Assembly (NCBI GenBank): GCA_020353555.1
Contig: CP070697.1
Span: forward strand, 3,652,124 to 3,709,236
Direction: 5' to 3'
DNA length: 57,113 nucleotides
From: Desulfobacterales bacterium
GTDB taxonomy: Bacteria; Desulfobacterota; Desulfobacteria; Desulfobacterales; G020353555
Below are positions 2,378 through 29,832 of this stretch, piece by piece. The translations under genes were made by a program, and so were the position numbers. The notes beneath the pieces are model-generated. The model ran no database searches. It had not been told where the DNA came from and worked only from the letters and a program-made list of their open reading frames with translations. Position 1 is the first letter of the stretch. Each line of letters opens with the position of its first letter.

Positions 2378-3544
2378 ATGCAGTTCATCGTGGGGGTCTT
2401 GGCGCTGTGCTTGTTGGCCGTCGGGTGCTCGTCTGCGCCACGGTCCGCTGTAAACCCAAATTTGACGCTCCAGGAAGATCAAGACCAGCTACTGCGCCTG
2501 GCCGAAGAAGAACAAAAAATTCTGGATGAGAGCGGGTTGCTATACCGTGATCAGGCGCTGGAAGAATACCTGAATGAAATTGTGAGGAGGCTCCAAGCAG
2601 CTGAAATTTCTGCCAAGACACCGATCCAGGTCATCGTTGTCGAGGATCCTTATTTAAATGCCTTCGCCCTTCCGAACGGTGTCATTTATGTGCATACGGG
2701 TATCCTGGCCCGAATGGATAATGAAGCTCAACTGGCCATTCTCCTGGCACACGAGATGACCCATTGCACCCGCCGGCATGCTTTGAGAGTTTACCAGCGT
2801 CTTAAAAACAAACCGGCTTTCCTGGCGGCGGTCCGCGACACGCTGAACCAATGGGGCAAACTGGGTGCCCTGGCATCCCTTCTCGGTTCAACCGGCTTAA
2901 CCCCCGGGTTTACCCAGGATCTTGAAAATGAGGCCGACCGCGTTGGATTGGAATTAGCCTCCGCCGCAGGCTATGATTCCTGCGAAGCACTCAAACTTTT
3001 TGCCCACTTAAAAGAAGAACTTGAGACCGAAAATCTAAAGGAGCCTTTTCTCTTCGGGACCCACCCGAAGTTAGCCAAGCGCTTGAAATACTATCAAGCA
3101 TTTTGTGAAAACCATTTCCAGGAAGACGCGGACAAAATCACCAATACAGAGGTTTTTCTGGCGAAGATCCACCCCCTAATCCTGGATAACGCTTGGCTGG
3201 ACCTCAAACGGGGAAGGTTTCGCTCGGCCCAGCGAGGGGCCGAAAGGTATTTGGCGATCCAGGCCGATGATGGGAGGGCTTACTATCTTCTAGGTGAGGT
3301 CTTCCGGCAGAGAGGAAAAGATAATGATCTTCAAAAGGCCAAGATCTATTACCAGCAAGCCATCTCCCGCGACCCTGCTTATGCGGAACCTTACAGAGCA
3401 ATGGGGCTGATCTACTATAAGGAAGGTCAAAAGCGACTTGCGCGGCCCTTTTTTGAGTCCTGCTTGTCCCTGGCACCCAATATATCTGACAAAGCCTATA
3501 TTGAGGGATATTTGAGAAAATGCACCCCTCATGAAGGAGGATAA
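2378..3544 (+). CDS. M48 family metalloprotease lipoprotein with TPR tail (BepA-like)
   Basis: This is a periplasmic zinc protease of the M48 family, 388 residues from the ATG chosen here. A signal peptide ends in LLAVGC, so it is probably a lipoprotein. The catalytic motif HEMTH lies at residues 125-129, and the third zinc ligand is in ENEAD near residue 183. The C-terminal third (about 285-380) has TPR-like helices (AYYLLGEVF, AYAEPYRAMGLIYYKEG). This order matches BepA/YfgC-type proteases, which act on stalled outer membrane assembly substrates; that role is inferred. The start is uncertain: in-frame starts exist at 2312, 2324 and 2351 and none has a clear ribosome binding site. The stop overlaps the next start as TAATG, implying coupled translation. 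Confidence 0.85.
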   Translation: MQFIVGVLALCLLAVGCSSAPRSAVNPNLTLQEDQDQLLRLAEEEQKILDESGLLYRDQALEEYLNEIVRRLQAAEISAKTPIQVIVVEDPYLNAFALPNGVIYVHTGILARMDNEAQLAILLAHEMTHCTRRHALRVYQRLKNKPAFLAAVRDTLNQWGKLGALASLLGSTGLTPGFTQDLENEADRVGLELASAAGYDSCEALKLFAHLKEELETENLKEPFLFGTHPKLAKRLKYYQAFCENHFQEDADKITNTEVFLAKIHPLILDNAWLDLKRGRFRSAQRGAERYLAIQADDGRAYYLLGEVFRQRGKDNDLQKAKIYYQQAISRDPAYAEPYRAMGLIYYKEGQKRLARPFFESCLSLAPNISDKAYIEGYLRKCTPHEGG

Positions 3545-4101
3545 TGAAAAAGCTAATTTGCGTGTTGATACCCTTTATAATCACCGCCTGTGCTTCGCGG
3601 ATCAACGGCGGGGGAGGCTTGTATGAATCCTCGACCCATCATTTTGCGGTGGATATCCCGGCCGGATGGGTACAATTGAATACCGATAAATATCTCATGT
3701 TATCCAAGGAAGATCCTTTCCTCCAATATGTGCTGATTCAAGCGCGCCCGATTGACAAACCCTTCAAACATACCAGAAAGAAACTGAAGCCAAGAATGCT
3801 GCCCCAAGAGGCAGCGGAAATCATTCTGGATGAAATCAGTTCCGATCGAAACGTTGTAAACTTCGCGCTGGTTGAAAATATCCCCGTGTCTCTTGACGGT
3901 TATGACGCGTTTAAAGTCATATTTACCTACAGCACCGAGAACAGCTTAAATCTGAAAACCATCTACTATGGTCTCCTCTCACAGGAGCGCTTCTACAACA
4001 TCCGGTATACGGCCGTCGAAAAATACTATTTTAAAAGAGATATCGAAGCCTTTGAAGCGATTTTAAACAGTTTTAAGCTCCATGACGCCCCGGCCGGTTG
4101 A
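3544..4101 (+). CDS. Putative lipoprotein, unknown function
   Basis: This frame encodes 185 residues. It starts at an ATG overlapping the stop of the M48 protease gene, with GAAGGAGG just upstream, so the two are translated together. The N-terminus MKKLICVLIPFIITACAS is a lipoprotein signal with the lipid-attachment Cys at residue 16. The remainder reads as a compact alpha/beta domain: HFAVDIPAGW and later GYDAFKVIFTY and LLSQERFYNIRYTA are typical of small periplasmic domains that follow user-friendly names such as PsbP-like or DUF-type surface proteins, but I cannot name the family. Coupling suggests it works with the M48 protease at the envelope. Confidence 0.75.
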   Translation: MKKLICVLIPFIITACASRINGGGGLYESSTHHFAVDIPAGWVQLNTDKYLMLSKEDPFLQYVLIQARPIDKPFKHTRKKLKPRMLPQEAAEIILDEISSDRNVVNFALVENIPVSLDGYDAFKVIFTYSTENSLNLKTIYYGLLSQERFYNIRYTAVEKYYFKRDIEAFEAILNSFKLHDAPAG

Positions 4102-4146
4102 GAGTTAGCACGCATCCGCTTAGCGATCATGTCTTTGCAGTGCATC

Positions 4147-4728
4147 CTAGTCTTCGACCACGAAGTGGGCGCGGCGGTTTTTCGCCTGCGCCTCTTCACT
4201 GCTGCCAGGATCGATAGGACGCTCCTCACCGTAGCTTACCGTATTTAGCCGCGATGGATCAAGGCCCAGATCGACGAAAAATAATCGCGCGCTTTCCGCC
4301 CGTCTATCTCCCAGGGCCAGGTTATACTCATTCGTGCCGCGATTGTCGCAGTGGCCTTCAATTATCACCTTGACCTGCCGGTTCTCCCTCAGCCATTGGG
4401 CTTTTTTCCTGAGAATCTCCTGAGCCTCCAATGAAAGCGCGGAGCTGTCGAATGCAAAATGGATATCTTCGTTCTGGAACAATTCTCTTTCGCTGGCTTG
4501 CCGCTCTTCATCCATTTTTTCGCGCAGACGCGCTTCGCCCAGGTTTTCTTCGCCGAGCGTCTCCTCTTTGAGCTCGGACGCGTCGCCGGCCCCCATCGGG
4601 GCTTCTTCTCCGAGGGTCGGCGTCGAGTAAGGTACGGAACTTATTCTCTTCTTACCACACGAGGGCACCACCAAAATTGCCGCCATCATAAGAACCAAAA
4701 CCACGGACGTCCAATTCTCACATTTCAT
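4147..4728 (-). CDS. pal: Peptidoglycan-associated lipoprotein Pal (OmpA-like)
   Basis: This frame encodes 193 residues starting after a strong AAGGAGG site. A signal peptide ends at VVPSC, giving an outer membrane lipoprotein. After an acidic, Glu-rich linker (about 45-85), the OmpA-like domain runs from about 88 to the end: [10 protein letters not shown], then [20 protein letters not shown] and the final NRRAHFVV. The HCDxRGTxEYN pattern is characteristic of Pal, which binds peptidoglycan and partners with TolB in the Tol-Pal system. No tol genes lie next to it here, which is not rare. It converges with the lipoprotein gene ending at 4101. Confidence 0.88.
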
Positions 4729-4804
4729 GTTGCTTTCCTCCTTAAATCGCCAAGTTAAAATATGCGGGGTGGATCATTTGTGCCAATGTATACAGCATCG
4801 AAGG

Positions 4805-4854
4805 CTAGTTTGTCAAAAAGCAATCAATACTAGTTTGTCAAAAAGCAATCAATA
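4805..4854. repeat. Tandem repeat, 2 x 25 bp
   Basis: The 25-bp unit starting CTAGTTTGTCAAAAAGCAAT occurs twice head to tail at 4805-4829 and 4830-4854 with no mismatch. It lies upstream of pal in a stretch without genes. It may be a recent slippage duplication or a pair of binding sites. Confidence 0.8.
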
Positions 4855-5377
4855 TTAGACCCCGCATTTCTCACCAACATCTCCGCCGCGCCTACCCGGT
4901 TAGCGGCGGCGGCCAGGGCCTGATATCCCAATTGCCACTGAGTCGTATTTCAAGTTTCTCATTTGGAAGTGCAGACCGGCAGCTGACCTTGATGTCAAAG
5001 AGATGGAGGTTTTAACCGACATGCAATCAGGGGAATCGACCAAACGCCTCGAAAATGCTGCTTGGGTCGACATATCCCCGCCTCACCATCCTTTGATTGG
5101 ATCCCAAGCCAATCTTTCTACTTGGGCTTCATCGGCGCGCAGCAGCGCATTGCATCCTACGACTTCCGCAACAACGCTTGATATGAGCAGCCTCAACCCA
5201 TCAGGTGTAGGAAAATCCATATAGCAATAAAACGTTTAATCCCCAGCCACTTATGTCGGTAATTCATTTTTCCCATGTTTTCTGGCGTAGGATATTTCCT
5301 GCACCACGATTGAACGCCAAAACCCGATTAATTCTAATAATATATTAATATCAGATAGTTATTACGATCGATGGTTT
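4855..5377. other. Intergenic region without supported gene
   Basis: A plus-strand open frame at 5003-5224 has a Ser/Thr-rich, featureless translation and no ribosome binding site, so it is not accepted. The right part is AT-rich and runs into the sigma-54 promoter match at 5378. Confidence 0.5.
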
Positions 5378-5393
5378 TGGTACACCAATTGCA
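5378..5393 (+). promoter_or_regulatory. Sigma-54 (RpoN) -24/-12 promoter match
   Basis: The sequence TGGTACACCAATTGCA fits the sigma-54 consensus TGGCACRNNNNTTGCW with one clear mismatch (T for C). The invariant GG (5379-5380) and GC (5391-5392) are separated by exactly 10 bases, as required. It points at the small exported protein gene starting at 5570, leaving a leader of about 165 bases. Enhancer sites for an activator were not identified. Confidence 0.6.
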
Positions 5394-5569
5394 CTCCTAT
5401 TAACAGTACGGACGATTGTTTGAATGCCAAAATGTGTACCCAAGCGAAAGGGGGTGATGCTTGAAAGGAGAGAAGTTACGTGACAAGGGGGAGTAATCAA
5501 TAATTGATGCTTATATGCATGCGTCAGTGAATCAAGAACAAAATCAATAGGATCTTCAAGGAGGTAGGA

Positions 5570-5848
5570 ATGGTGAAAAAATTCGTATCAATGCTGGTTG
5601 TGACCCTTTTTGTATTCTCATTTATCGCTATCACCGGTGTCGCCGCGGAAGAGATGCAAAAGATTACCGGAACGGTCATGTCCGTCAATCCCGACGCCGG
5701 TGAGTTGATGGTTAAGGACGAAGCAGGCGAGGAGAAATCATTTACCGCCGGGGCGGAAGTTGACCTGAAAACCTGTAAAGAAGGGGATAAGGTAAGTGTG
5801 GAAGCCGATGCCGACGGTAATATCAAATCGCTTTCCGTTATCCAATAA
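5570..5848 (+). CDS. Small exported periplasmic protein
   Basis: This frame encodes 92 residues after a strong AAGGAGGT site. Residues 1-26 form a Sec signal peptide ending near GVAAEE. The mature 66 residues start with KITGTVMSVNPDAGELMVKD, then EKSFTAGAEVDL, GDKVSVEADADG and IKSLSVI. This beta-rich pattern with a GxVxxVxxxxxxxxV start resembles small OB-like or CusF-like periplasmic domains, but metal-binding Met/His/Trp residues of CusF are not evident, so no function is assigned. One cysteine is present. A sigma-54 promoter match upstream and an intrinsic terminator downstream make it a self-contained, probably stress- or nutrient-regulated unit. Confidence 0.8.
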   Translation: MVKKFVSMLVVTLFVFSFIAITGVAAEEMQKITGTVMSVNPDAGELMVKDEAGEEKSFTAGAEVDLKTCKEGDKVSVEADADGNIKSLSVIQ

Positions 5849-5874
5849 AACCAACCTCTGACAATGGAATCAGA

Positions 5875-5905
5875 AGGGGCACAGCGTTGCGTGCCCCTTT
5901 TTTTT
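5875..5905 (+). terminator. Rho-independent terminator
   Basis: An 8-bp stem (AGGGGCAC at 5875-5882 with GTGCCCCT at 5891-5898, eight-base loop) is followed by a run of T residues to 5905. It ends the transcript of the small exported protein gene. Confidence 0.9.
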
Positions 5906-5975
5906 GAACAGCAATTTGGAGATATTATCTGTTCAATGGGAGACAAATCTTAGATCTTGGAAAGGAGGTAGAAGC

Positions 5976-6269
5976 ATGAAACACGTTATCGCGGTACTAG
6001 CCGTTCTGGCGTTAATAGCTTTTTCGGCCTGTGAACAATCCGAAAAAGGCGATCAACCGCCCCAAGGCCAGGTCGAGACTTCCGCGGAAGCGGTAAAAGA
6101 GCAAGCCGCGGAAACCGCTGAATCCGCTAAAGAAGCCGCCTCAGCGGTCGAGGAAAAAGCTTCGGAGGTCGCCGAAGAGGCCAAGGAGGAGGTCTCTGAA
6201 GCGGCTGAAACCGTGAAGGAAACCGCCTCCGAAGCGGTTGAAGAGGCCACCGAAAAAAAATCCGAATAA
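5976..6269 (+). CDS. Ala/Glu-rich helical lipoprotein
   Basis: This frame encodes 97 residues. The ATG at 5976 follows AAAGGAGGT, so the longer frame from 5904 is not used. A signal peptide ends at ALIAFSAC, giving a lipoprotein. From about residue 38 to the end the chain is almost only Ala, Glu, Lys, Ser, Thr and Val in repeating 11- and 7-residue patterns (AAETAESAKEAASAVEEKAS and similar). This predicts one long amphipathic helix like those of LEA-like or apolipoprotein-like proteins. It may act as a periplasmic spacer or stress protectant; this is inference. It is separated from its upstream neighbour by a terminator. Confidence 0.75.
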   Translation: MKHVIAVLAVLALIAFSACEQSEKGDQPPQGQVETSAEAVKEQAAETAESAKEAASAVEEKASEVAEEAKEEVSEAAETVKETASEAVEEATEKKSE

Positions 6270-6398
6270 GCTTCAGAAACTGCCGGTCAGGCATCCACTG
6301 CAAATACCTTCACAGTGCCGCCGGCCCCGTTGAAGACGGGTGTTGATACCTTGACCGGCAAAATCAAAGAAGTTTCCCTCCCCAGAGGCAATCCCCTG

Positions 6399-7067
6399 TC
6401 ATTTAAAAGTCAACTTAAACAGCACGATTCGAATTTTTTCGCCTTCAGAGCGCAGGACCTTTTTCTGCGCTTGGATCTTGAAAATCGGTTCCATCTGTTT
6501 GAAGAACGCCCCGATCGTTTTTCTCATTTCCGAAACCAGAATGACCTCGCCTTCGGGCTTTAAGTACGTCTGAAAAAGCCGCCCCAACGCCTGCAAAGAG
6601 CCTTCTCTATATATCACTTCCGATCCCACAATATAATCAAATCGGCCCTTCAATCCCGGCCGGTTCCAGTCCAGCGGCATGATGGATAGTTGCGGCAAAC
6701 CATTCAGATGGGCGTTGGCGCGTGCGAATTGAAGGGCGTCGGAATCATACTCGGTCATCGTCATATGATGTCCGGCCGTCGCGGCCACGATACTGACCAC
6801 TCCCACCCCGGCACCGATCTCAAGGAAACGCTTTTGCGGGTTAACCGGCATATCCGCTAAATATCCGGCTAACGCCCAGGATGCCTGCCAAATCTTAGTC
6901 CACAACGGAAAATCCTGGAAAATGTCGTCAGGATTGATGAATCGATCCAAGGTTTTGGGAAGCAGAATGCTGAATTTGCGCCCGTTTACCGTCAATTCCG
7001 TGGTATCGGCTTCATAATTGTTATAGAAGGTTTCGATTGAAAACATATTGGGTGTCCATTCCGCCAT
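6399..7067 (-). CDS. Class I SAM-dependent methyltransferase
   Basis: From the internal ATG at 7067 the protein has 222 residues. The open frame reaches 7127, and another start is possible at 7046; none has a strong ribosome binding site. The Rossmann motif I is FLEIGAGVGVVSIVAA, followed by the acidic residue in MTEYDSDALQFARAN. A VGSEVIYREGSL segment stands at the motif post-II position, and the pre-motif region contains FPLWTKIWQASWALAGYL. This pattern is typical of the METTL21/nicotinamide N-methyltransferase-like group of protein or small-molecule methyltransferases. The substrate cannot be told from sequence. It is divergent from the aminotransferase gene. Confidence 0.8.
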   Translation of the reverse strand: MAEWTPNMFSIETFYNNYEADTTELTVNGRKFSILLPKTLDRFINPDDIFQDFPLWTKIWQASWALAGYLADMPVNPQKRFLEIGAGVGVVSIVAATAGHHMTMTEYDSDALQFARANAHLNGLPQLSIMPLDWNRPGLKGRFDYIVGSEVIYREGSLQALGRLFQTYLKPEGEVILVSEMRKTIGAFFKQMEPIFKIQAQKKVLRSEGEKIRIVLFKLTFK

Positions 7068-7375
7068 AGCCACCAAACCCAAGAAATTAAAACAAAAAAC
7101 CGACTGTTCCTGCCTTGTGACGGGCACTTGGATACAATCTGCGGCGCATCGGGTGGCCTTTCCAAATCAACCGTTATCCGAGAATCTCAAAATTTCAGGC
7201 CGAAGTCAAAACTATTTCCCGTTTTCAGGAGCGATCCGGATGAGGTCGGCAAACGACAATCTCCGATTCGAGCAAACAATGCGCTTGTAACCGCTCGTTC
7301 AAGGCATTATATTAACGCATTTTGAACGCCATTCAAAAAGCAAGCCCGGTGGGGAATTCGGTTCTAGGAGCGCTG
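7068..7375. other. Divergent intergenic region
   Basis: About 300 bases separate the leftward methyltransferase and rightward aminotransferase genes. Short overlapping frames on both strands lack ribosome binding sites and are treated as noise. No operator or promoter could be named. Confidence 0.5.
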
Positions 7376-8218
7376 ATGAAGGACATCTATTACGTGGATG
7401 GCGAATTCGTAACGGCCGATAAAGCCGTGATTCCGGCCGACGATCTAGCCATACTGCGGGGATATGGGGTATTCGATTTCCTGCGGACATACCATGGTAA
7501 GCCGCATTTTATAACCGAACACATCGAGCGTTTGATGAATTCGGCCCGTCAGATCGGCCTGGATTTACCCTGGTCGCAGGAAGAAATTACCGACCTGGTG
7601 CGGCAGACCTTAAGCCGCAATACCCATCGCGAATCCAACATTCGCATTGTCGTAACCGGCGGCTCCAGCCCTGATTATATCACCCCCCAAGGGAAACCCC
7701 GTCTGCTCATTCTGGTAACCCCGTTGCCTGAAATGCCCGCGTGGTGGTACAGGGACGGGGTGAGGATCATCACGATACACTCCGCACGCAATATCCCCGG
7801 CGCCAAGAGCATCGATTATATTTCGGCCACCATCGCGTTGAAGGAAGCGCGGCGACAAAAGGCCGTTGAAGCCGTTTACATTGATCGCGATGGAAGGGTT
7901 CTGGAAGGAACCACCAGCAATCTTTTTGTTTTCAACGGCGACACCCTCTTCACACCGGGCCGGTTCATTCTAAACGGGATCACTCGCAGGGTTGTCTTAG
8001 AAATCGCCGCTCGCTGGCATGCCATCGAGGTTCGGGATATTGAGCTCCCGGAACTCCTATCCGCCGACGAGGTATTCATCACCGGATCGAACAAAGAGAT
8101 TGTCCCTGTCATTGCCGTCGATGATACCATTATCGGCGACGGCCAACCCGGGCACCGCACGCGTAACTTAATGCAAGCCTTTGCCGCGTCCCATGACCAC
8201 GATGTGTGTTCGCCGTGA
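7376..8218 (+). CDS. Class IV PLP-dependent aminotransferase
   Basis: From the ATG at 7376, which follows TAGGAG, the protein has 280 residues, the usual size for branched-chain or D-amino acid aminotransferases. Fold-type IV marks are visible: YYVDGEFV at the start, RGYGVFDFLRTYHGKPHFI, the expected catalytic lysine at 144 in PGAKSIDYI, and EGTTSNLFVF at 177-186 with the PLP-binding Glu. It could be IlvE-like (branched-chain amino acids), a D-amino acid aminotransferase or 4-amino-4-deoxychorismate lyase. The sequence alone does not decide, though the full HxxRL region (HIERLMNSA) fits an aminotransferase. It stands alone on the plus strand. Confidence 0.85.
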   Translation: MKDIYYVDGEFVTADKAVIPADDLAILRGYGVFDFLRTYHGKPHFITEHIERLMNSARQIGLDLPWSQEEITDLVRQTLSRNTHRESNIRIVVTGGSSPDYITPQGKPRLLILVTPLPEMPAWWYRDGVRIITIHSARNIPGAKSIDYISATIALKEARRQKAVEAVYIDRDGRVLEGTTSNLFVFNGDTLFTPGRFILNGITRRVVLEIAARWHAIEVRDIELPELLSADEVFITGSNKEIVPVIAVDDTIIGDGQPGHRTRNLMQAFAASHDHDVCSP

Positions 8219-8578
8219 CGATTTGCCGTGCCACACCCATCCAGGACTCGGGGACTCTGAGGACCACAATTTTCACCCCAAAAAGGGCCCCATGCTTGAT
8301 CGCAAAACTGACAAAGGCTATACTGGCCCCGGAAGTTATCCGACCCCCGCAGTGTCTCTGCGGAAATGGCTATTTTTCCCGATTTCAGCGTCAGGCACCC
8401 ATTTTGATTCGCGAAATACCCTCTGGATTCCTGTGGTTGATCCCGCCGGCGCGGGACAAGCTTTCCTTGAACGTGAATCCCGCCGCGGGCGGCACTCATT
8501 TCCGGGCGGACCCTGCGAATTCACATTTCAATGTCATTGACTCATTCTGGAAGACAATTTCCCCCAAAGGAGGTTAAG
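8219..8578. other. Intergenic region without supported gene
   Basis: Open frames on both strands here are Pro/Arg-rich and have no ribosome binding sites. The right end carries AAAGGAGGT at about 8565-8573, the ribosome binding site of the thioredoxin reductase gene. Confidence 0.5.
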
Positions 8579-20777: not shown

Positions 20778-20822
20778 AGCGCCTGCGTGTATCAGCATTT
20801 CAACCCGCAAGAAAGGCCAACC

Positions 20823-23222
20823 ATGGCACGGGAAGATCCCTCCGGGAAAAATTCGCAAAAAGATATTCCCCGCCCCCCGGCGGCGGACCCGCTTGCAATT
20901 CTTGAGGTCTTTGAACGGTTGGAAGTCGGGCCGGTCAAGCTGGAACCCAAACGGCTGATTGCGCCTTACCGGCTGGTTTGGGGGGGAAAAGAAGATCATA
21001 CAGAGCTGATCTACAGCTACGAAGAGGCCGTATTCGAACCGTCCGAACCGGAATCCGCCAACTTGGCCGATATGATTGCCGCCCAGGTGGCCCTCAATTA
21101 CGGTTTGTTTTGCCGGACGATTGTCTTGCGCGGTGCTTTTGACCAGATCGATCGCCGATTTTTGCGGGAGGCGGCGGAAAATACGGCCCGGGAGATTTTT
21201 GTGAAAAAATTCCTGGAGCCCAACCCGTTCTTGATCGGCGAGGCGGCCCAGATGGCGCCGACAAGAAATCCGAACTATTTGAGGGCCGTTTTGGAATTCC
21301 CGGATGCCCTGAAAAAAAAATCGAAGTCGATCTGGCGGCTGTGGCCGGTTGACAAAAAGCGTCACGGCATCCTGTCCAGCGGCGGTAAAGACAGCCTTTT
21401 GAGTTACGGACTGATCAATGAGTTGGGCCTGGAGGTCCATCCCCTTTTTGTGAATGAATCCGGCCGGCACTGGTTTACAGCGCTCAATGCCTACCGCTAT
21501 TTTAAAGCGCATATCCCCCACACGGCCCGGGTATGGGTCAACTCCGATCGGCTCTTCGCTTGGGTGCTCAACCGCATGCCCTTTATTCGCAAAAATTTTG
21601 CTGATATACGCAGCGACACCTACCCTATTCGGCTGTGGACGGTGGCGGTGTTTCTCTTCGGTGCCCTGCCGCTTTTACGCAAACGCGGCATCGGGCGCCT
21701 GATTATCGGAGATGAGTTTGATACCACCGTGCGCAAGTCCTTGGAAGGGATCTCGCATTACGACGGTCTGTATGACCAGAGTCTTTATTTTGATCAGGCG
21801 CTCTCGCGCTATTTTATGCAAAAAGGCTGGGCGGTCAGCCAGTTTTCCGTGTTGCGACCCCTTTCGGAACTTTTGATTGAAAAGATCCTGGTAGAGCGTT
21901 ACCCTGATCTGCAAGTCCACCAAACCTCCTGTCATGCGACGCATAAAGAGGGTGAACGCGTATACCCGTGCGGCCGCTGCGAGAAATGCCGCCGAATTGT
22001 CGGTATGTTGGTGGCGCTCGACGCCGACCCCATCCGCTGCGGGTATAAAGCGTCGCAGATTGAAGAATGTCTGAGAGGGCTGCGGCAGAAAGGGGTTTCG
22101 CAGGAAGAGGCCGGAGCGCAGCAGCTGGGTTACATGCTTGCTCAGAAAGGAATGATCGATGTTGCCGCTTCCCGACCCCACACGTTCAAGGCGCATCCGG
22201 AAGTTCTCAAGCTGCGGTTTGATGCGCGACGATCACCGTTGTCCGGAATTCCGCAAGATCTCCGCCGACCGCTGTGGCGCATTTATCGCGAGCATGCCGA
22301 CGGCGCCGTCCGGCGAACCGGCCGGACTTGGACCGAATTTGATCCGCTGACGGATCCTGAGATGCACCGGAGCTACCCCTTTGAACTGGGTACCATCAAA
22401 CCGGAGACGCACTCCCCAGAAAGTGGAATTTCAGCTGCACCGCACGGTTTTTTGTGGGGGGAATTAACCTGGCCCGATGCGGGCGAGCGTATCAAAGCGG
22501 TGGATGTAGCGCTGCTGCCGGTGGGGTCCATCGAACAGCATGGGCCCCATCTGCCGCTGGATACCGATACGTTTGATGCTGAATATCTGGCCCGCCGCGT
22601 GGCCGCAGCTTGCAGTGACCCCCAACCCTTGATGCTGCCCGCGGTTTCCTACGGCGTTTCCTATCATCACGATGATTTCCCGGGAACCGTCAGCATTTCC
22701 AATGAAACGCTCGCCCGTCTGGTTTATGAAATCGGCATGAGCGTCGCGCGCCATGGAATCAACAAGCTGGTCATCATCAATGGCCATGGGGGCAACGGTC
22801 CGGCCCTCAATTATGCGGCGCAGATGATTAACCGGGACGCCCGTATCTTTGTATGTGTCGATACCGGTGAGACCAGCGACGTCGACATAGCCAGTCTGAT
22901 TGAGACGCCCAACGATGTCCATGCGGGTGAAATTGAGACCAGTACGAGCCTGGCGGTGCGGCCGCATCTGGTTAAACTGGATCGCAGGGCGCCGTCGGTT
23001 CCGGAGTTTTCCAGCCGGTATCTAGACTTCAGCTCCCTGCGCGGCGTTTCGTGGTACGCTTACACCCGCAAGATTTCGGCCAGCGGGGTGATGGGCGACC
23101 CCACCCGGGCCAGCGGCCAGAAAGGCGCAAAAATCTGGGAGATCATGATTGCCCACCTGGTGGCTTTTGTGGAGGATTTAAAACACATGACCTTGGAAGA
23201 AATCCATCACCGGCGGCACTAG
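20823..23222 (+). CDS. QueC-like PP-loop ATPase fused to a creatininase-family amidohydrolase
   Basis: The ATG at 20823 follows AAAGG and gives 799 residues; a GTG at 20787 is possible. In the N-terminal half, SGGKDS at 186-191 is a PP-loop that binds ATP and activates a carboxylate or carbonyl as adenylate. Downstream, C370 and the trio in PCGRCEKCRR (C383, C386, C389) match the zinc site of QueC. The C-terminal quarter (about 560-799) is a creatininase-family domain: PVGSIEQHGPHLPLDTD, IINGHGGN and DVHAGEIETS carry the expected metal ligands. Such domains hydrolyse small cyclic or linear amides and include MftE of mycofactocin maturation. A single chain could thus both form and open an amide. 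MurL-like epimerases are another PP-loop relation to consider. It follows the PLP enzyme by 45 bases. Confidence 0.8.
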   Translation: MAREDPSGKNSQKDIPRPPAADPLAILEVFERLEVGPVKLEPKRLIAPYRLVWGGKEDHTELIYSYEEAVFEPSEPESANLADMIAAQVALNYGLFCRTIVLRGAFDQIDRRFLREAAENTAREIFVKKFLEPNPFLIGEAAQMAPTRNPNYLRAVLEFPDALKKKSKSIWRLWPVDKKRHGILSSGGKDSLLSYGLINELGLEVHPLFVNESGRHWFTALNAYRYFKAHIPHTARVWVNSDRLFAWVLNRMPFIRKNFADIRSDTYPIRLWTVAVFLFGALPLLRKRGIGRLIIGDEFDTTVRKSLEGISHYDGLYDQSLYFDQALSRYFMQKGWAVSQFSVLRPLSELLIEKILVERYPDLQVHQTSCHATHKEGERVYPCGRCEKCRRIVGMLVALDADPIRCGYKASQIEECLRGLRQKGVSQEEAGAQQLGYMLAQKGMIDVAASRPHTFKAHPEVLKLRFDARRSPLSGIPQDLRRPLWRIYREHADGAVRRTGRTWTEFDPLTDPEMHRSYPFELGTIKPETHSPESGISAAPHGFLWGELTWPDAGERIKAVDVALLPVGSIEQHGPHLPLDTDTFDAEYLARRVAAACSDPQPLMLPAVSYGVSYHHDDFPGTVSISNETLARLVYEIGMSVARHGINKLVIINGHGGNGPALNYAAQMINRDARIFVCVDTGETSDVDIASLIETPNDVHAGEIETSTSLAVRPHLVKLDRRAPSVPEFSSRYLDFSSLRGVSWYAYTRKISASGVMGDPTRASGQKGAKIWEIMIAHLVAFVEDLKHMTLEEIHHRRH

Positions 23223-23274: not shown

Positions 23275-25524
23275 TCAGATGGATTTGCGGTAGACGGCTT
23301 TGGCTTCCCCTGGAGCGTAAAAATCATCCAGCACGGATTCTACCCGATACCCACAACCTTCATAAAAGGCACGGGTGCTGGCATATTGAACACGCATGGA
23401 TGTATCGACATAGACGCGCGTGCCGCCGGCTTCGCGAATCAAGCGTTCCGTTTCCTTTAACAGCCGCCGGCCCACGCCCTTGCCCTGATAATCAGGGTGG
23501 ACGGCAATCCAGTATAGATCGTAGCTGGAAGCCGTGGCGGGTACCGGCCCGTAGCAAGTATAACCCGCCAGCCGGCCGTAATGCTCCCCTAAGAGAAAAT
23601 GATATCCACTGGCCACACCCCTGGCGAGATGCTCATTGGCCAGTTCGCAGGCCATTTCGATTTCAGCCGGACTGAAGAATCCGGTAATTTCCACCAGCCG
23701 GCGAATTCTTTCGACGTCGGGCGCTGAGATCTCGCGACGGAGCTTAAGACCATGAAAGCGCTCCTGGCGTGACGGCCGGCGGAAAATGGCATGATAGCTG
23801 GCAGCGGCCATCCCGTAAAGAAAACGGCGGGCGTTGGTCCCGAGCGTTCGGGTGCGATAGCCGCCTTCCTGAACGACGACGATGGGAAGGCCCAGCTCTC
23901 CGATCAGGCGGCCATTGGACTCGAAGTCGCGGGCTGTCAGGGACCAGGTGCCGGTGGGATCGGCCTTGGCCGTGTCAAAACCCAGGGCCACGACGAGAAA
24001 ATCGGGAGCGAAATCAGCGACGCGTTGTAAAGCCTGGCTGAGTGTTTTGCGATACCGGTTGCCGTCAATCGACTCGGGCAGCGGCAGGTTCAGGTTAAAG
24101 CCCTCGCCTTCGCCCTCGCCGGTGTCTTCCTTGAATCCGGAAAAATAGGGGTAGGCAAAACTTGGGTGTCCATGGATGGAAACGGTCAGGACATCCGGGC
24201 GGCGGTAGAAGATATCCTGCTGTCCGTTGCCATGATGGTAGTCGATATCAAGGATCGCCACTCTGCCATAGTTGCAGAGGTACTCGGCGACGATCGCGTT
24301 GTTGTTGAAATAACAGAAGCCTCCGAAAGCCCGACGCTCGGCGTGGTGGCCCGGGGGGCGCACCAGGGCATAAGCGATCCGCCGGCCTTCAATGATCTCC
24401 CGGGCGGCGGTCAAGGCACAATCCACCCCGCGCCGGGCCGCGGGATAGGCGTTGCGGTTGAGCGGGGTAAAGGTGTCGATGCAGTAGTAACCGGAAAGCA
24501 CCGAGCGCTCTTTGGGCGGCCGGGTTTTATTGCGGATGGGGAAGATATAGGGGTAAAGCGACTTGCTGTCCGGAACTTCCTGGCAGGCCCGCCGGATATA
24601 ATGCACGAAATCCACGTCGTGGACCGCGTAAATGGGTTTGTCCGGGAAAACGCGGGGTTTGATTTGATCACACAGGCCGCTTTTCTCCAGTTCGGCCAGA
24701 ATGCTTCTGACCCGCACCGGCGACTCCACATATCCATGTTCGTGAATGTGGTGGATCGTATGGCGATCGTTGACCACCAGGGCGATTTGTTCGGTCGAGC
24801 GTCCCTTGACCGTTGCCACGACCGCCGCCGGTTTGACATAGCGAAATTCCCTCAACCGCACCGGGTTGTCGCGAAGCGATTCCACGACTTTCTGAACATA
24901 GTCCGGCGGGCAATAATTCGCATACTTTTTCTCGAGGATCGCCCGAGCCACCTGGCGCGCAAAAGTCCGGTTTAGCGGTTTTTCGGTGCCGATGCCGTCA
25001 TAAACCAAAAAGGGCATGCAGGTGTCGCCGGCGCTCACCGGTGTTTCATAGGCCGTGTTGACGATCGGCCGCGCCCCATACCGCTCATAGAATCGCAACC
25101 GCGCCCGATTTTGCCGCAGCAGATTGTCATCCGGGCAAGCCTCGGCTTCGTCCGGCAGGCATTCGAAAAACAGGCCTTTGACGCCCAGGGCGGCAGCCTC
25201 CTGGCGTACGCGTTCGTAAAGCGCGCCTCCGATGCCGCCGCTGGATTTTTCCCGGAGGCTGGCAATCCAGTCCAGGTAACAGAAACCGATTTGGGGCTCG
25301 TGCAAAAGCACTGCAAACCCCAGGACTTTATTGCGAATGTTCTCCGCCACAAAGAGGATGGAGCGCAGCCGCTGCTTGAACGGGTTGCTCAGCTTCTCGC
25401 CGACCTGTTCGATCTCCTCCTCGGCCACCTCGCTGAACCGGCTGCGCAAAAGGTCTTTAACCTGCCGCAAGGTGTCTTTGTTGAGGGGCAACACCTCGTC
25501 GTAAATCCTGCGTATACGTAACAA
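23275..25524 (-). CDS. GNAT-HDAC-GNAT triple-domain protein
   Basis: This frame encodes 749 residues from a TTG placed directly after the stop of the upstream ligase gene; no in-frame ATG occurs near the N-terminus. Domain 1 (about 1-180) is GNAT-like, with SSGGIGGALYERV as the CoA loop and FYERYGARP. Domain 2 (about 250-585) is a class II-type deacetylase/acetylpolyamine amidohydrolase: RPPGHHAERRAFGGFCYFNN, metal ligands D428, H430 and D522 (DIDYHHGNG, GFDTAKADP) and catalytic Tyr in EGGY. Domain 3 (about 598-749) is a standard GNAT: VHPDYQGKGVGRRLL and STRAFYEGCGY. It can plausibly add and remove acetyl groups on an amine substrate. All key residues look intact. It converges with the creatininase fusion, with 52 bases between stops. 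Confidence 0.85.
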   Translation of the reverse strand: MLRIRRIYDEVLPLNKDTLRQVKDLLRSRFSEVAEEEIEQVGEKLSNPFKQRLRSILFVAENIRNKVLGFAVLLHEPQIGFCYLDWIASLREKSSGGIGGALYERVRQEAAALGVKGLFFECLPDEAEACPDDNLLRQNRARLRFYERYGARPIVNTAYETPVSAGDTCMPFLVYDGIGTEKPLNRTFARQVARAILEKKYANYCPPDYVQKVVESLRDNPVRLREFRYVKPAAVVATVKGRSTEQIALVVNDRHTIHHIHEHGYVESPVRVRSILAELEKSGLCDQIKPRVFPDKPIYAVHDVDFVHYIRRACQEVPDSKSLYPYIFPIRNKTRPPKERSVLSGYYCIDTFTPLNRNAYPAARRGVDCALTAAREIIEGRRIAYALVRPPGHHAERRAFGGFCYFNNNAIVAEYLCNYGRVAILDIDYHHGNGQQDIFYRRPDVLTVSIHGHPSFAYPYFSGFKEDTGEGEGEGFNLNLPLPESIDGNRYRKTLSQALQRVADFAPDFLVVALGFDTAKADPTGTWSLTARDFESNGRLIGELGLPIVVVQEGGYRTRTLGTNARRFLYGMAAASYHAIFRRPSRQERFHGLKLRREISAPDVERIRRLVEITGFFSPAEIEMACELANEHLARGVASGYHFLLGEHYGRLAGYTCYGPVPATASSYDLYWIAVHPDYQGKGVGRRLLKETERLIREAGGTRVYVDTSMRVQYASTRAFYEGCGYRVESVLDDFYAPGEAKAVYRKSI

Positions 25525-26559
25525 TTACCTTTTACTCCTTGTCTGGGCCGCGCTCAAAATCCGCTCGACCGCGGCGCCGAAATTCAAGCCGGATTTTGCA
25601 ACAGCCGCTGCGAACCCGGCATCCGGAGACAGACACGGATTCGCGTTGATCTCCAGAATCCAGGGCTGTCCGCGTCCATCCACGCGAAAGTCGATGCGGG
25701 CATAACCGCTCAGGGCGAAGACTCGCCAGCATCGTTGCGCCACGGCGGCCAGCTTCCCGAGCAGGGGTGTATCATGGGGCGCAAAGTCGAAACATCGCGG
25801 GGTGTGTTTGTATTCGAAGGATTCGGGCTCCCATTTGGCCCGATAGCCCACAATCCGTAATTTGTCAGCCGGATAATCTTGAAAAATGATTTCGGCCGGC
25901 GGCAAAACCTGCGGGTCTTCCGGCCCGGCCAAAAGGGAAAGGTTGAACTCGCGGCCGTCGACATACGCTTCGGCATAGCATGCCCCGCCAAGCTGGGGTG
26001 CTTTTTGCTTTAAAAGCTTTTGGACCTGAACGGTATCGTCACTGAGAACCAGTTCATCTTCGTTTATTCCCACGGAAGCATGCTCCCAGAGGGATTTGAG
26101 GATCCATTTGGTCTGAGGGCCCTCGGCCTTGGCGACGGGGGCCGACTGGTCGGGGCGGCCGAGGGTCGGCATCTCCGGCGGGTAGGGTCCGATCCAGGGC
26201 GGTGTCGCCAGATCGGCGGCCGCCATGGCCTGTTTGGCCAGGATTTTGTGCGAAGTAAGATAAACGGCCGGTGATCCCGATCCGGTATAAGGCACACCTA
26301 TGGCGTCGAGCAATGCCGGAAATAGATGGATCAGGCTTCCCTGTCCGTTCAGGGATTCCACCAGGTTAAAAACGACATCCGGCTCAATCTCCCGCAGCCG
26401 GTCCTGCACGGCCGCTAGATCTAAAGTACAAGCAAGCCGGACCGGCTGATGGCCGAGTTGTTGCAGGGCTTCGGCGACCGCATCGGCCTGCACCAGAACA
26501 TCGCGTTCGTCCGGCGCGCTCTCATCGCCTACCGCATTGTGAACGACGGCTATGCGCAT
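25525..26559 (-). CDS. ATP-grasp ligase (D-Ala-D-Ala ligase-like), second of a pair
   Basis: The start at 26559 (MRIAVVHNAV) follows GGGAGG and overlaps the end of the upstream ligase by 10 bases. The protein has 344 residues. The usual Ddl order is visible: PDVVFNLVESLNGQGSL, then PYTGSGSPAVYLTSHK, WILKSLWEHASVGI as the ATP lysine strand, CYAEAYVDGREFNLSLL, and the magnesium site WILEINANPCLSPDAG. ATP-grasp enzymes join a carboxylate to an amine through an acyl phosphate. It is too divergent to be assigned to peptidoglycan synthesis, and the context with KamA suggests a dedicated peptide or amide ligase. The stop codon directly abuts the next start. Confidence 0.85.
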   Translation of the reverse strand: MRIAVVHNAVGDESAPDERDVLVQADAVAEALQQLGHQPVRLACTLDLAAVQDRLREIEPDVVFNLVESLNGQGSLIHLFPALLDAIGVPYTGSGSPAVYLTSHKILAKQAMAAADLATPPWIGPYPPEMPTLGRPDQSAPVAKAEGPQTKWILKSLWEHASVGINEDELVLSDDTVQVQKLLKQKAPQLGGACYAEAYVDGREFNLSLLAGPEDPQVLPPAEIIFQDYPADKLRIVGYRAKWEPESFEYKHTPRCFDFAPHDTPLLGKLAAVAQRCWRVFALSGYARIDFRVDGRGQPWILEINANPCLSPDAGFAAAVAKSGLNFGAAVERILSAAQTRSKR

Positions 26560-27572
26560 TGCCGCCTCCCGTTCCCGCCAGCAGAACCGCGGGAAATTCT
26601 TGCCGCCGCCGATGCGACGATGCGGGCGATCAGCTCGCGGTAAGGGATTCCTAACTGGGCGCAGATAATCGGCAGATCGGAATGCTCCGGATGCAAACCG
26701 GCCAACGGATTGATCTCCATAAAATGCGGCTGGCCGTCGGCGTCGCAGCGCAGATCGATGCGACCCCCGTCCCGGCCGCCGAGTATCCGCCAAACCTTCA
26801 GAGCGATTTCTTCGGCTTCGGCGATTACCGGATCTTCCTGGGGCCGAACTAACCGGTATTCAATCAGCTCTTCACAGTGTTCTTTGTTGAAGTATGAATA
26901 AACACCCGGCTCGGCGGAGGGCCGCAGATGCAATTCGATGGTCCCCAACACCTCGGCCGCCGGGCCGGTGCCGGCAAGGCCCACCGTAAATTCCCGCCCC
27001 GGCAGGTAGCGTTCGATCAAGACGGGCTGGCGGTAGGCCGCGAGCAGCGCCTCGCATGCGGCCGGAAGGTCTTGGCGCCTGTGCACGAGGGAGTTTGGTG
27101 AGACGCCTTTTCCGGTGCCTTCCGCAACGGGTTTGACGAAGAAGGGCGGGGCCAAGGGGACGTCCCTGGCGTCGTCAACGCATTCGACAACCTTAAAATC
27201 GGAAGTCGGCACACCGGCATCGCGGATCACCCGTTTGGTCAGGCCTTTGTGCAGGGTAAGGCTCATGACCAGCGGATCCGAAAACGTGTACGGGATCGCG
27301 TAGGCGTCTAGAATAGCGGGAACCTGCGCTTCCCGGCCGATGCCGTAAAGCCCCTCGGCGATGTTGAACACCAAATCCCAACGGTCGCCGGCCGCCAGCC
27401 GCTGGATCAGCTGCCGGACGTTTCCGATGCGGGCGGTTGTGTGACCCAGCTGTTTCAGCGTGTTTTCCAGGACATCGATGGTGTCCTCACGATCGAATTC
27501 GGCGGTTTCATCAGCGCTGTAGCCTTGGGCCAGATATTCAGATCGTAAATCGTAGGCCAATCCTATATGCAT
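26550..27572 (-). CDS. ATP-grasp ligase (D-Ala-D-Ala ligase-like), first of a pair
   Basis: The start at 27572 (MHIGLAYDLRSEYL) follows TAGGAG; the open frame extends further to 27635 without a better site. The protein has 340 residues. Visible motifs are WDLVFNIAEGLYGIGREAQV, PYTFSDPLVMSLTLHKGLTK, FFVKPVAEGTGKGVS (ATP-binding), VLIERYLPGREFTVGLAG and HFMEINPLAGLHPEHSDLP (magnesium ligands E and N). It differs clearly from its neighbour in the substrate-side loops, so the pair probably uses two different substrates. The unusual SYFNKEHCEELIEY segment may contact the substrate. Confidence 0.85.
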   Translation of the reverse strand: MHIGLAYDLRSEYLAQGYSADETAEFDREDTIDVLENTLKQLGHTTARIGNVRQLIQRLAAGDRWDLVFNIAEGLYGIGREAQVPAILDAYAIPYTFSDPLVMSLTLHKGLTKRVIRDAGVPTSDFKVVECVDDARDVPLAPPFFVKPVAEGTGKGVSPNSLVHRRQDLPAACEALLAAYRQPVLIERYLPGREFTVGLAGTGPAAEVLGTIELHLRPSAEPGVYSYFNKEHCEELIEYRLVRPQEDPVIAEAEEIALKVWRILGGRDGGRIDLRCDADGQPHFMEINPLAGLHPEHSDLPIICAQLGIPYRELIARIVASAAARISRGSAGGNGRRQCA

Positions 27573-27916: not shown

Positions 27917-29248
27917 TTACGGCATCTCGGCGTCAGGATAGCGGAAGGTCCTGCCTTCGTAGTTACGCAACAGCAAAGAGCCTTCGCTGCGTCCGAGGAC
28001 GTAGTCCGGCATGAGCGGGATCTTGCCGCCGCCGCCCGGGGCATCGATGACGTAGGTCGGCACGGCGTATCCGCTGGTGAATCCGCGCAGCCCCCGGATG
28101 AGCTCCAGTCCTTTTTCCACCGGGGTGCGAAAGTGGCCGGAACCGGAAATCGGATCGCACTGGTAAAGATAATAGGGCCGTACACGCATGCGCAGCAGGT
28201 GGTGGACCAGCGCTTTCATGGTATCGATGTTGTCGTTGATTCCCTTGAGCAGCACCGTCTGGGAACCGAGCGGAATACCGGCATTGGCAAGCCGGTTACA
28301 GGCGCGGTAGGCGTCCGGGGTACACTCCGCCGGGTGGGTGAAGTGCAGACTCATCCACACGGGATGGTGCTTGCGCAGCGTGCGGACCAGTTTGGGCGTA
28401 ATACGCTGGGGCAGCACGGCCGGGATCTTGGTGCCGATCCGGATGATTTCCACATGGGGAATCTGGCGCAGGCGACCCAGGAGCCAATCCAAACGCTCGT
28501 CATTGAGTGTCAGGGGGTCACCGCCGGAAAGCAGGACGTCCCGGATACCGGGGGTGGAGCGGATATAATCGATGGCTCTTTCAAGGCGCGCTGTGCTCGG
28601 GTGAAAGCCCCCGTGTCCGACAATGCGGGAGCGGGTGCAGTACCGGCAGTAAGTCGAACAGAAGTCCAGTACCAGCAAGAGTACCCGGTCGGGGTAACGA
28701 TGCACCAGCCCCGGCACCGGGCTTTGACGGTCTTCGTCCAGGGGGTCATCGGCCTCGCCCGGCATCTGGCGAAACTCATGCACGGTGGGTACGACCGTCC
28801 GCCGTAAAGGTTGATCCGGCGCGTCCCTGGCCAAGAGGCTCATGTAGTACGGGGTGATTCCCACCGGCAACTTGGCGCCCAGCATTTCAACGCCCTGGCG
28901 TTCGGCGTCGGACAGGTTCAAAATTTTTTCAAGTTGCTCGAGGCTACGAATTCTGTTTCTAATCTGCCAGCGCCAATCGGACCAGTCCTTGTCGGTGGAA
29001 CCGGGGAAAAAATTACGGCGAAAGGCGGTGGTCCTCAGTGGGACACAGGCGCAGTGTTGCCTCAGGGCGGTGGGGAGCACCGGTGCGGTTGAACGCCGAC
29101 GGCACTCCAAAGGGGAAATTGTTAGTACTTTGGCAAGGCCAGAGCTAGTACCTGGAGGTTCTTCATCATTTTCTCCTGCCGGCTCGTTTGCGGGTCCGGT
29201 TGTTGGGGTGCCGGCAGGTAAGCGAAAAGCAGCCTTTTTTTGTATCAC
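27917..29248 (-). CDS. kamA: Lysine 2,3-aminomutase (KamA, radical SAM)
   Basis: The enzyme moves the alpha-amino group of lysine to the beta carbon, using SAM, a 4Fe-4S cluster and PLP. The cluster ligands are C197, C201 and C204 in FCSTYCRYCTR. PLP binds the lysine K409 in DAPGGGGKIP. The two acidic residues that hold the lysine side chain in the clostridial enzyme (D293 and D330 there) match D365 and D402 with the same 37-residue spacing, and D402 to K409 keeps the spacing of 7. Glutamate 2,3-aminomutases carry Lys and Asn instead. This supports lysine as substrate. A GTG start behind GGAAGGAG gives 443 residues, with about 80 N-terminal residues unlike the family, so the start is uncertain. 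Confidence 0.9.
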   Translation of the reverse strand: MIQKKAAFRLPAGTPTTGPANEPAGENDEEPPGTSSGLAKVLTISPLECRRRSTAPVLPTALRQHCACVPLRTTAFRRNFFPGSTDKDWSDWRWQIRNRIRSLEQLEKILNLSDAERQGVEMLGAKLPVGITPYYMSLLARDAPDQPLRRTVVPTVHEFRQMPGEADDPLDEDRQSPVPGLVHRYPDRVLLLVLDFCSTYCRYCTRSRIVGHGGFHPSTARLERAIDYIRSTPGIRDVLLSGGDPLTLNDERLDWLLGRLRQIPHVEIIRIGTKIPAVLPQRITPKLVRTLRKHHPVWMSLHFTHPAECTPDAYRACNRLANAGIPLGSQTVLLKGINDNIDTMKALVHHLLRMRVRPYYLYQCDPISGSGHFRTPVEKGLELIRGLRGFTSGYAVPTYVIDAPGGGGKIPLMPDYVLGRSEGSLLLRNYEGRTFRYPDAEMP

Positions 29249-29832
29249 TTTTTTTCTCCTTCCTCATGCTTCGCGACGACCTCCGCTCAACCGGGCGTTG
29301 AGTGAAGGGTGCCATGGAAATCCGTGCGTTGATCCGCAAACTGGAATTTTGTAAGCATTAGAACCAAATATCGTGCCAACTTTATAAGATATTTATTTTA
29401 TTGCATAAATTTATTCCAACGCCGATAGAATCGGAATTCTTGATTCTGATATTGCGCCGCCGCATTTGTCTCAGGCGGGCAATTCTAGGGAGATCTATTA
29501 TAACCAACTAACATTATTATTAAAACAATATGAGAAGTATCAATTCCGATTTTGGCCGAAGTAGAAGTCAGAGTTCTTTTCTGCAGGCGCAGGGGGAGAA
29601 TCGCAACCGCGCCGCGAGGGCATTGGGGCTTATTTGCGTCCGGTTTCTGCGGGAAGGCTGCGTTGCGCCCCTGCGCGAGGGGCGATCTGTTTCCGGGGCA
29701 CAAAATCAGAGACCGGAAGCCAGTTTGAATTGATTCCAGCGGCCGCGGGATTTCCATCCCTCCGTTTGCACTTGAATTATTTCCCCTAAAGGCTTATGGT
29801 TGGGGCACAAATTGAGAGGTGCGTCGCTGCCG
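29249..29832. other. Divergent intergenic region
   Basis: This AT-rich stretch separates kamA and tamA. On the minus strand at 29379-29364, TGGCACGATATTTGGT resembles a sigma-54 promoter, but the -12 GC dinucleotide is GG, so it is not called. A plus-strand fragment near 29585-29660 translates to a short Fis-like helix (GENRNRAARALGL) without a surrounding gene. Confidence 0.5.

Follow-up and report, generated by a model that had tools for sequence, protein, structure and literature searches.

Introduction

In the AblA/AblB pathway to N-epsilon-acetyl-beta-lysine, a lysine-type 2,3-aminomutase adjoins a GNAT acetyltransferase, AblB, which is the known N-acetyl-beta-lysine enzyme. The gene cassette described here has the same type of aminomutase adjoining a GNAT, but adds to them two ATP-grasp ligases and an HDAC. 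N-acetylglutaminylglutamine (NAGGN) synthetase is a fusion of a GNAT to an ATP-grasp ligase, and compared by architecture it resembles the fused ligase–acetyltransferase (AG2-GNAT_C) of four loci related to ours (L021, L023, L024 and L027); the cassette differs in what is probably a beta-lysine-type precursor, in its two ligases and in its HDAC unit. In ectoine metabolism, EctA and DoeB acetylate and deacetylate the same small diamino acid, a pairing like the one reported below, although there the deacetylase is of a different family and the two activities reside in separate proteins. The acetylpolyamine amidohydrolases (ApaH; cluster 4 of the classical deacylases) deacetylate acetylputrescine and acetylcadaverine (PMC11532494, PMC4784309), and the polyamine gatekeeper positions of such enzymes have been described (PMC11532494).

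The window analysed is a stretch of 57,113 nucleotides from the genome of a Desulfobacterales bacterium (contig CP070697.1). A sequence-only reading of it had claimed a chain of 749 residues at 23275-25524, in which two acetyltransferase domains flank an HDAC domain. The open-access literature that we searched yielded no description of such a GNAT-HDAC fusion or of the cassette, and the passages that the search returned from a 2024 survey of bacterial deacylases make no mention of a GNAT-HDAC fusion.

A conserved GNAT–HDAC–GNAT protein

The open reading frame, Pfam matches to the HDAC and to both GNATs, and full-length relatives all bear out the claimed fusion, to which we add that it lies on the minus strand. 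The gene and its parts are as follows.

23275..25524, minus strand: triple-fusion gene, 749 aa, TTG start
24985..25524, minus strand: GNAT_N, the N-terminal acetyltransferase domain (residues 1-180), from profile, conservation and model
24730..24984, minus strand: linker from GNAT_N to HDAC (residues 181-265), with two conserved helices
23818..24729, minus strand: HDAC / acetylpolyamine-amidohydrolase-like domain (residues 266-569), Pfam Hist_deacetyl 263.8 bits
23278..23754, minus strand: GNAT_C, the C-terminal acetyltransferase domain (residues ~591-749), Pfam 71.5 bits

The TTG start is preceded by AAGGAG and is supported by relatives in many genomes, which align from residue 1 to residue 749 at 63-70% identity. 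Such full-length relatives rule out a chance reading frame or a mis-joined assembly, and a pseudo-enzyme is ruled out at residue level by motif residues that are invariant among 45 relatives. The fusion is real and conserved, and its parts are of known kinds. A structure model of the full chain reached pLDDT 83.6 and pTM 0.62, with low confidence in the linkers; helices 186-200 and 207-216 of the first linker are present in both structure models and are conserved in bidomain relatives. Among plasmid records no place reached 80% query coverage, and the matches listed there are to the HDAC domain only.

Both GNAT domains keep the CoA loop that had been claimed for them. GNAT_N is weak when taken alone (PF00583, 23.4 bits against a Pfam cut-off of 20.7), but a GNAT family is matched by the GNAT_N of 32/32 relatives, and an AlphaFold2 model of the domain shows a confident GNAT fold (pLDDT 90.5, pTM 0.88). 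A fold search (VIA) with GNAT_N returned generic GNATs only, the best being 2wpx with Z 15.5, rmsd 2.8 and 167 aligned. Its CoA loop, G97-x-G99, is invariant in the 45 relatives, as are E121, N139, R142, F145 and Y146. Streptothricin acetyltransferases acetylate the beta-lysine part of streptothricin, and one of them is the best PDB profile match of GNAT_N; at E 0.0018 the apparent kinship is weak and near noise, and we give it little weight. For GNAT_C, the Pfam match spans residues 640-727, and the GxG loop, TS and FY are invariant in 16 sequences. Its closest solved relative (2r7h, E 2.4e-43) is the Desulfovibrio GNAT Dde_3044, a stand-alone protein with the putative annotation 'putative D-alanine N-acetyltransferase', whereas GNAT_C is part of a fusion.

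Neither GNAT of the fusion matches the AblB family, TIGR03827, so that identity with AblB is not supported; no AblB was found in the source genome. AblB is distributed independently of the cassette, and since three of 11 AblB genomes also carry the cassette, a mutual exclusion that might have signalled a shared role is not seen.

The HDAC domain

Residues H393, H394, D426, D428, H430, D517 and Y556 are invariant in the 45 relatives; among them are the double His (H393 H394), the Zn ligands (D428, H430, D517) and the catalytic Tyr (Y556), and the earlier claim that every metal and catalytic residue is in place holds. At sequence level, then, neither a missing CoA loop in the GNATs nor an inactive deacetylase site was found.

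The best five PDB matches of the domain are all ApaH, with 6phr at the top (E 3.9e-75), and msAPAH (6phr), PsApaH (9gkz) and MrApaH (3q9b) are of the same sequence type at E 4e-75 to 3e-63. Fold (Foldseek against msAPAH, TMt 0.83), Zn ligands, double His and Tyr are all shared with these enzymes. Unlike them, the domain is joined to one or two GNATs and tied to the KamA/ATP-grasp cassette, and its gatekeepers differ: the acidic polyamine gatekeeper is absent, Ser341 aligning to Glu106 of MrApaH, and PTG (P523 T524 G525, invariant in the 45 relatives) stands where HDAC10 has PEG and PsApaH has PIS. PsApaH also does without Glu106, yet acts on acetylpolyamines (PMC11532494), so this residue is no strict requirement of the ApaH family. 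The change at both published gatekeepers hints that the substrate is not one of the common polyamines.

The same genome encodes a second large HDAC protein (L002 1372-3840, minus strand; G000:C1 near 912,000; HDAC 300 bits), whose ~490 N-terminal residues are without a Pfam match and look partly GNAT-like, by eye only.

The neighbouring cassette genes

The fusion gene ends a four-gene run on the minus strand, in the order KamA, AG1, AG2, fusion.

29363..29379, minus strand: sigma-54-like -24/-12 site, TTGGCACGATATTTGGT, 131 nt upstream of KamA, with an imperfect -12 element
27917..29248, minus strand: KamA, radical-SAM aminomutase of lysine type (2a5h, E 8e-144)
26550..27572, minus strand: AG1, ATP-grasp amide ligase, D-Ala-D-Ala-ligase-like (PF07478, 87.1 bits; 6u1c, E 5e-23)
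25525..26568, minus strand: AG2, ATP-grasp amide ligase, D-Ala-D-Ala-ligase-like (PF07478, 53.7 bits; 8evx, E 8e-15)

KamA aligns over 360 residues to the lysine 2,3-aminomutase 2a5h and keeps its Asp293 and Asp330 (in YQCD and DAPGGGGK), the PLP Lys and the radical-SAM Cys triad (CSTYCRYC). In lysine 2,3-aminomutase it is this Asp pair that sets lysine specificity. The NCBIfam score of KamA for TIGR03820 is 499.1 bits, below the cut-off of 525.4, and the C-terminal part of LAM_C is absent (57/127 positions). AG1 and AG2 score 143.8 and 100.7 bits against an NCBIfam D-Ala-D-Ala ligase cut-off of 243, and by these profile scores are relatives of that enzyme, not members. AG1 likely starts at an ATG at 27572, and its stop overlaps the likely ATG start of AG2 at 26568; homologues of AG2, with relatives at 36-61% identity, align from about residue 75-79 of its longest open frame.

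Sigma-54-like sites scoring at least 11/13 lie upstream of 14/36 KamA genes, the window's own included, as against 42/733 background windows (5.7%; binomial p 5e-9, kinship ignored). A Desulfovibrio sigma-54 paper makes no mention of the cassette.

Some further genes may be recorded here. In eight relatives (L028 5446-5964 and seven other loci) KamA and AG1 are separated by an optional cysteine-rich gene of ~173 aa; none was seen in the window. Elsewhere in the source genome there is a second KamA-family protein of 603 aa (L094 1279-3090, minus strand; G000:C1 near 567,000), which is much extended at its N terminus and lacks the lysine-type YQCD. On the plus strand of the window, at 20787-23222, lies an 811-aa protein. 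Its C-terminal domain is a creatinine amidohydrolase (240 bits) akin to mycofactocin MftE; the N-terminal part, which contains a GGKDS motif, weakly matches MurL-like proteins.

Distribution and modular history

We surveyed 326 Desulfobacterota genomes, counting AG1 as strong at 300 bits or more. GNAT_N and HDAC are a fixed pair: GNAT_N occurs in 32 of these genomes, each time in an open frame of at least 577 aa, long enough for the HDAC too and never in a short one, and the HDAC is carried by 45/45 aligned members. Strong AG1 is found in 67 genomes, namely 25 of the 32 with GNAT_N-HDAC and 42 of the other 294 (Fisher p 1.2e-13, kinship ignored). Six of the seven GNAT_N-HDAC genomes without strong AG1 (G023, G065, G155, G232, G296 and G376) have KamA, an ATP-grasp ligase and GNAT_C, fused or separate, and the seventh, G356, has its copy on a short contig; when weaker AG1 relatives are counted the tally rises to 31/32. 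The exception, G023, has KamA and an AG2-GNAT_C fusion (L081); no AG1 was found between these two genes or, at E 1e-25, elsewhere in the genome, so this organism may manage without AG1.

The converse does not hold. The pair is absent from 42 of the 67 strong-AG1 genomes, a figure somewhat inflated by missing contigs of draft genomes. Mapped onto a phylogeny of 61 AG1 proteins, the presence of the pair requires 22 gains or losses, of which supported branches force at least 11, and 474/500 sets of shuffled labels score as low, which is to say that the pair is as scattered as random; close relatives such as G362 and G185 differ in having it and lacking it, respectively. The GNAT_N-HDAC pair is on these grounds optional: it depends on the cassette, while the cassette is independent of it. 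A query with the HDAC domain found a match in 56/58 relatives, and because a separate ApaH elsewhere in the pair-free genomes could do the job, deacetylation as such might still be essential.

The two acetyltransferases are not equivalent partners of the HDAC, since GNAT_C belongs to the ligases of the cassette and GNAT_N to the HDAC. GNAT_C is fused to AG2 in L021, L023, L024, L027 and L081, the first four without an HDAC in the stretch examined, and is a gene of its own in L051, L061, L067, L083 and L088-L091. GNAT_N-HDAC in turn occurs as a protein of ~580 aa in Bacteroidota, Planctomycetota, Spirochaetota and other Desulfobacterota, within the cassette or away from it. Within it three orders are seen: KAM-AG1-AG2-[N-HDAC]-GNAT_C, KAM-AG1-AG2-GNAT_C-[N-HDAC] and KAM-[N-HDAC]-AG1-AG2-GNAT_C. 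For the stand-alone genes we looked for a conserved neighbour and found none.

In Desulfobacterales, most loci whose contig reaches upstream keep the order KamA-AG1-AG2-triple fusion, and three (L042, L043 and L048) lack a cassette in their vicinity. The triple form makes up one supported group (SH-aLRT 99), in which only L047 has two domains, most readily explained by loss of the third. The three-domain chain goes back to one later fusion event, within the Desulfobacterales.

A second type of cassette, in which the ATP-grasp pairs have diverged (AG1 ~35-39% and KamA 47-56% identical), is present in L073, L074, L076, L078 and L080; in L073 (G065, 2540-8399) a triple fusion stands beside it.

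Proposed role and alternatives

Drawing on the gene order, fusion history, residue conservation, co-occurrence and optional distribution observed above, we infer the following substrates and order of reactions, and with them a possible osmolyte role. KamA would convert L-lysine to beta-lysine, AG1 and AG2 would spend ATP on amide bonds linking beta-lysine with further small acids or amines, and GNAT_C would acetylate the ligase product to give a beta-lysine peptide or amide that carries an N-acetyl group and might be a compatible solute; by analogy with AblAB and NAGGN, the product possibly serves as an osmolyte. As the unit needs the pathway and the pathway does not need the unit, the target of GNAT_N-HDAC is most probably the product or an intermediate, in tailoring, recycling or control. 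Our tentative preference, held with somewhat less than even confidence, is for an optional unit that resets or recycles acetyl groups on the beta-lysine-derived product: the HDAC would strip acetyl from a small amine of the pathway and GNAT_N would place an acyl group on an amine, and between them they would reset or recycle acetylation across the product pool. Where the fusion stands last in the beta-lysine cassette, in Desulfobacterales, this add-on was joined to the cassette's GNAT_C, such that one chain might make, remove and remake the acetyl amide.

The interpretation offered by the sequence-only reading is partly supported, and its guess at acetylated beta-lysine is strengthened by the genes nearby. 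The lysine-type Asp pair of KamA and an ApaH-like HDAC, of a kind used for small acetylated amines, speak for it; because the HDAC groups with enzymes for small acetylated diamines, an acetyl on beta-lysine or its amide would be a suitable candidate substrate. Should the preferred reading be true, a widespread and apparently undescribed beta-lysine metabolite pathway would exist in Desulfobacterota, Bacteroidota and Planctomycetota, along with a natural case of small-amine acetylation and deacetylation welded in one chain.

A protecting-group cycle, as first proposed for the fusion, would have GNAT_N acetylate one of the two amines of beta-lysine, which leaves the other for coupling by the ligases, and would have the HDAC deprotect afterwards. 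Both activities are predicted in one chain with both active sites conserved, and in L067 and L092 the genes for KamA and the ligases are separated by GNAT_N-HDAC. The pair is, however, missing from most cassettes, even among very close relatives, and its history calls for no fewer than 11 gains or losses, which disfavours an obligatory cycle. We regard this explanation as unlikely, though it might yet apply where the product is a variant.

Similarly unlikely is a purely catabolic unit, in which the HDAC would begin to degrade the acetylated product so that lysine and acetate can be used again, and GNAT_N would be a regulatory or detoxifying side activity. ApaH enzymes are catabolic in Pseudomonas aeruginosa (PMC4784309), and the optional, cassette-dependent distribution is as expected, but breakdown alone hardly explains GNAT_N's kept CoA loop and obligate link to the HDAC.

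An enzyme acetylating and deacetylating polyamines (spermidine, putrescine, cadaverine), beside the cassette by chance, would suit an HDAC closest to ApaH, given that PsApaH tolerates the loss of Glu106; the tight link to the cassette across many gene orders and phyla, and the change of both gatekeepers, make it improbable. We hold out no greater hope for a dedicated acetyl-transposing or acetyl-exchanging enzyme of a previously undescribed beta-lysine peptide family, in which the HDAC would free one amine and a GNAT of the same chain acylate another, fixing the metabolite's final form.

Least probable of all is an acetylation switch on a lysine of KamA or the ligases, after the manner of AcuA/AcuC for acetyl-CoA synthetase: optional distribution suits a regulator and PsApaH has some lysine deacetylase activity, but ApaH-type sites are sterically narrow, for small molecules (PMC11532494), and the fusion of GNAT_C to a ligase in other genomes fits a biosynthetic role.
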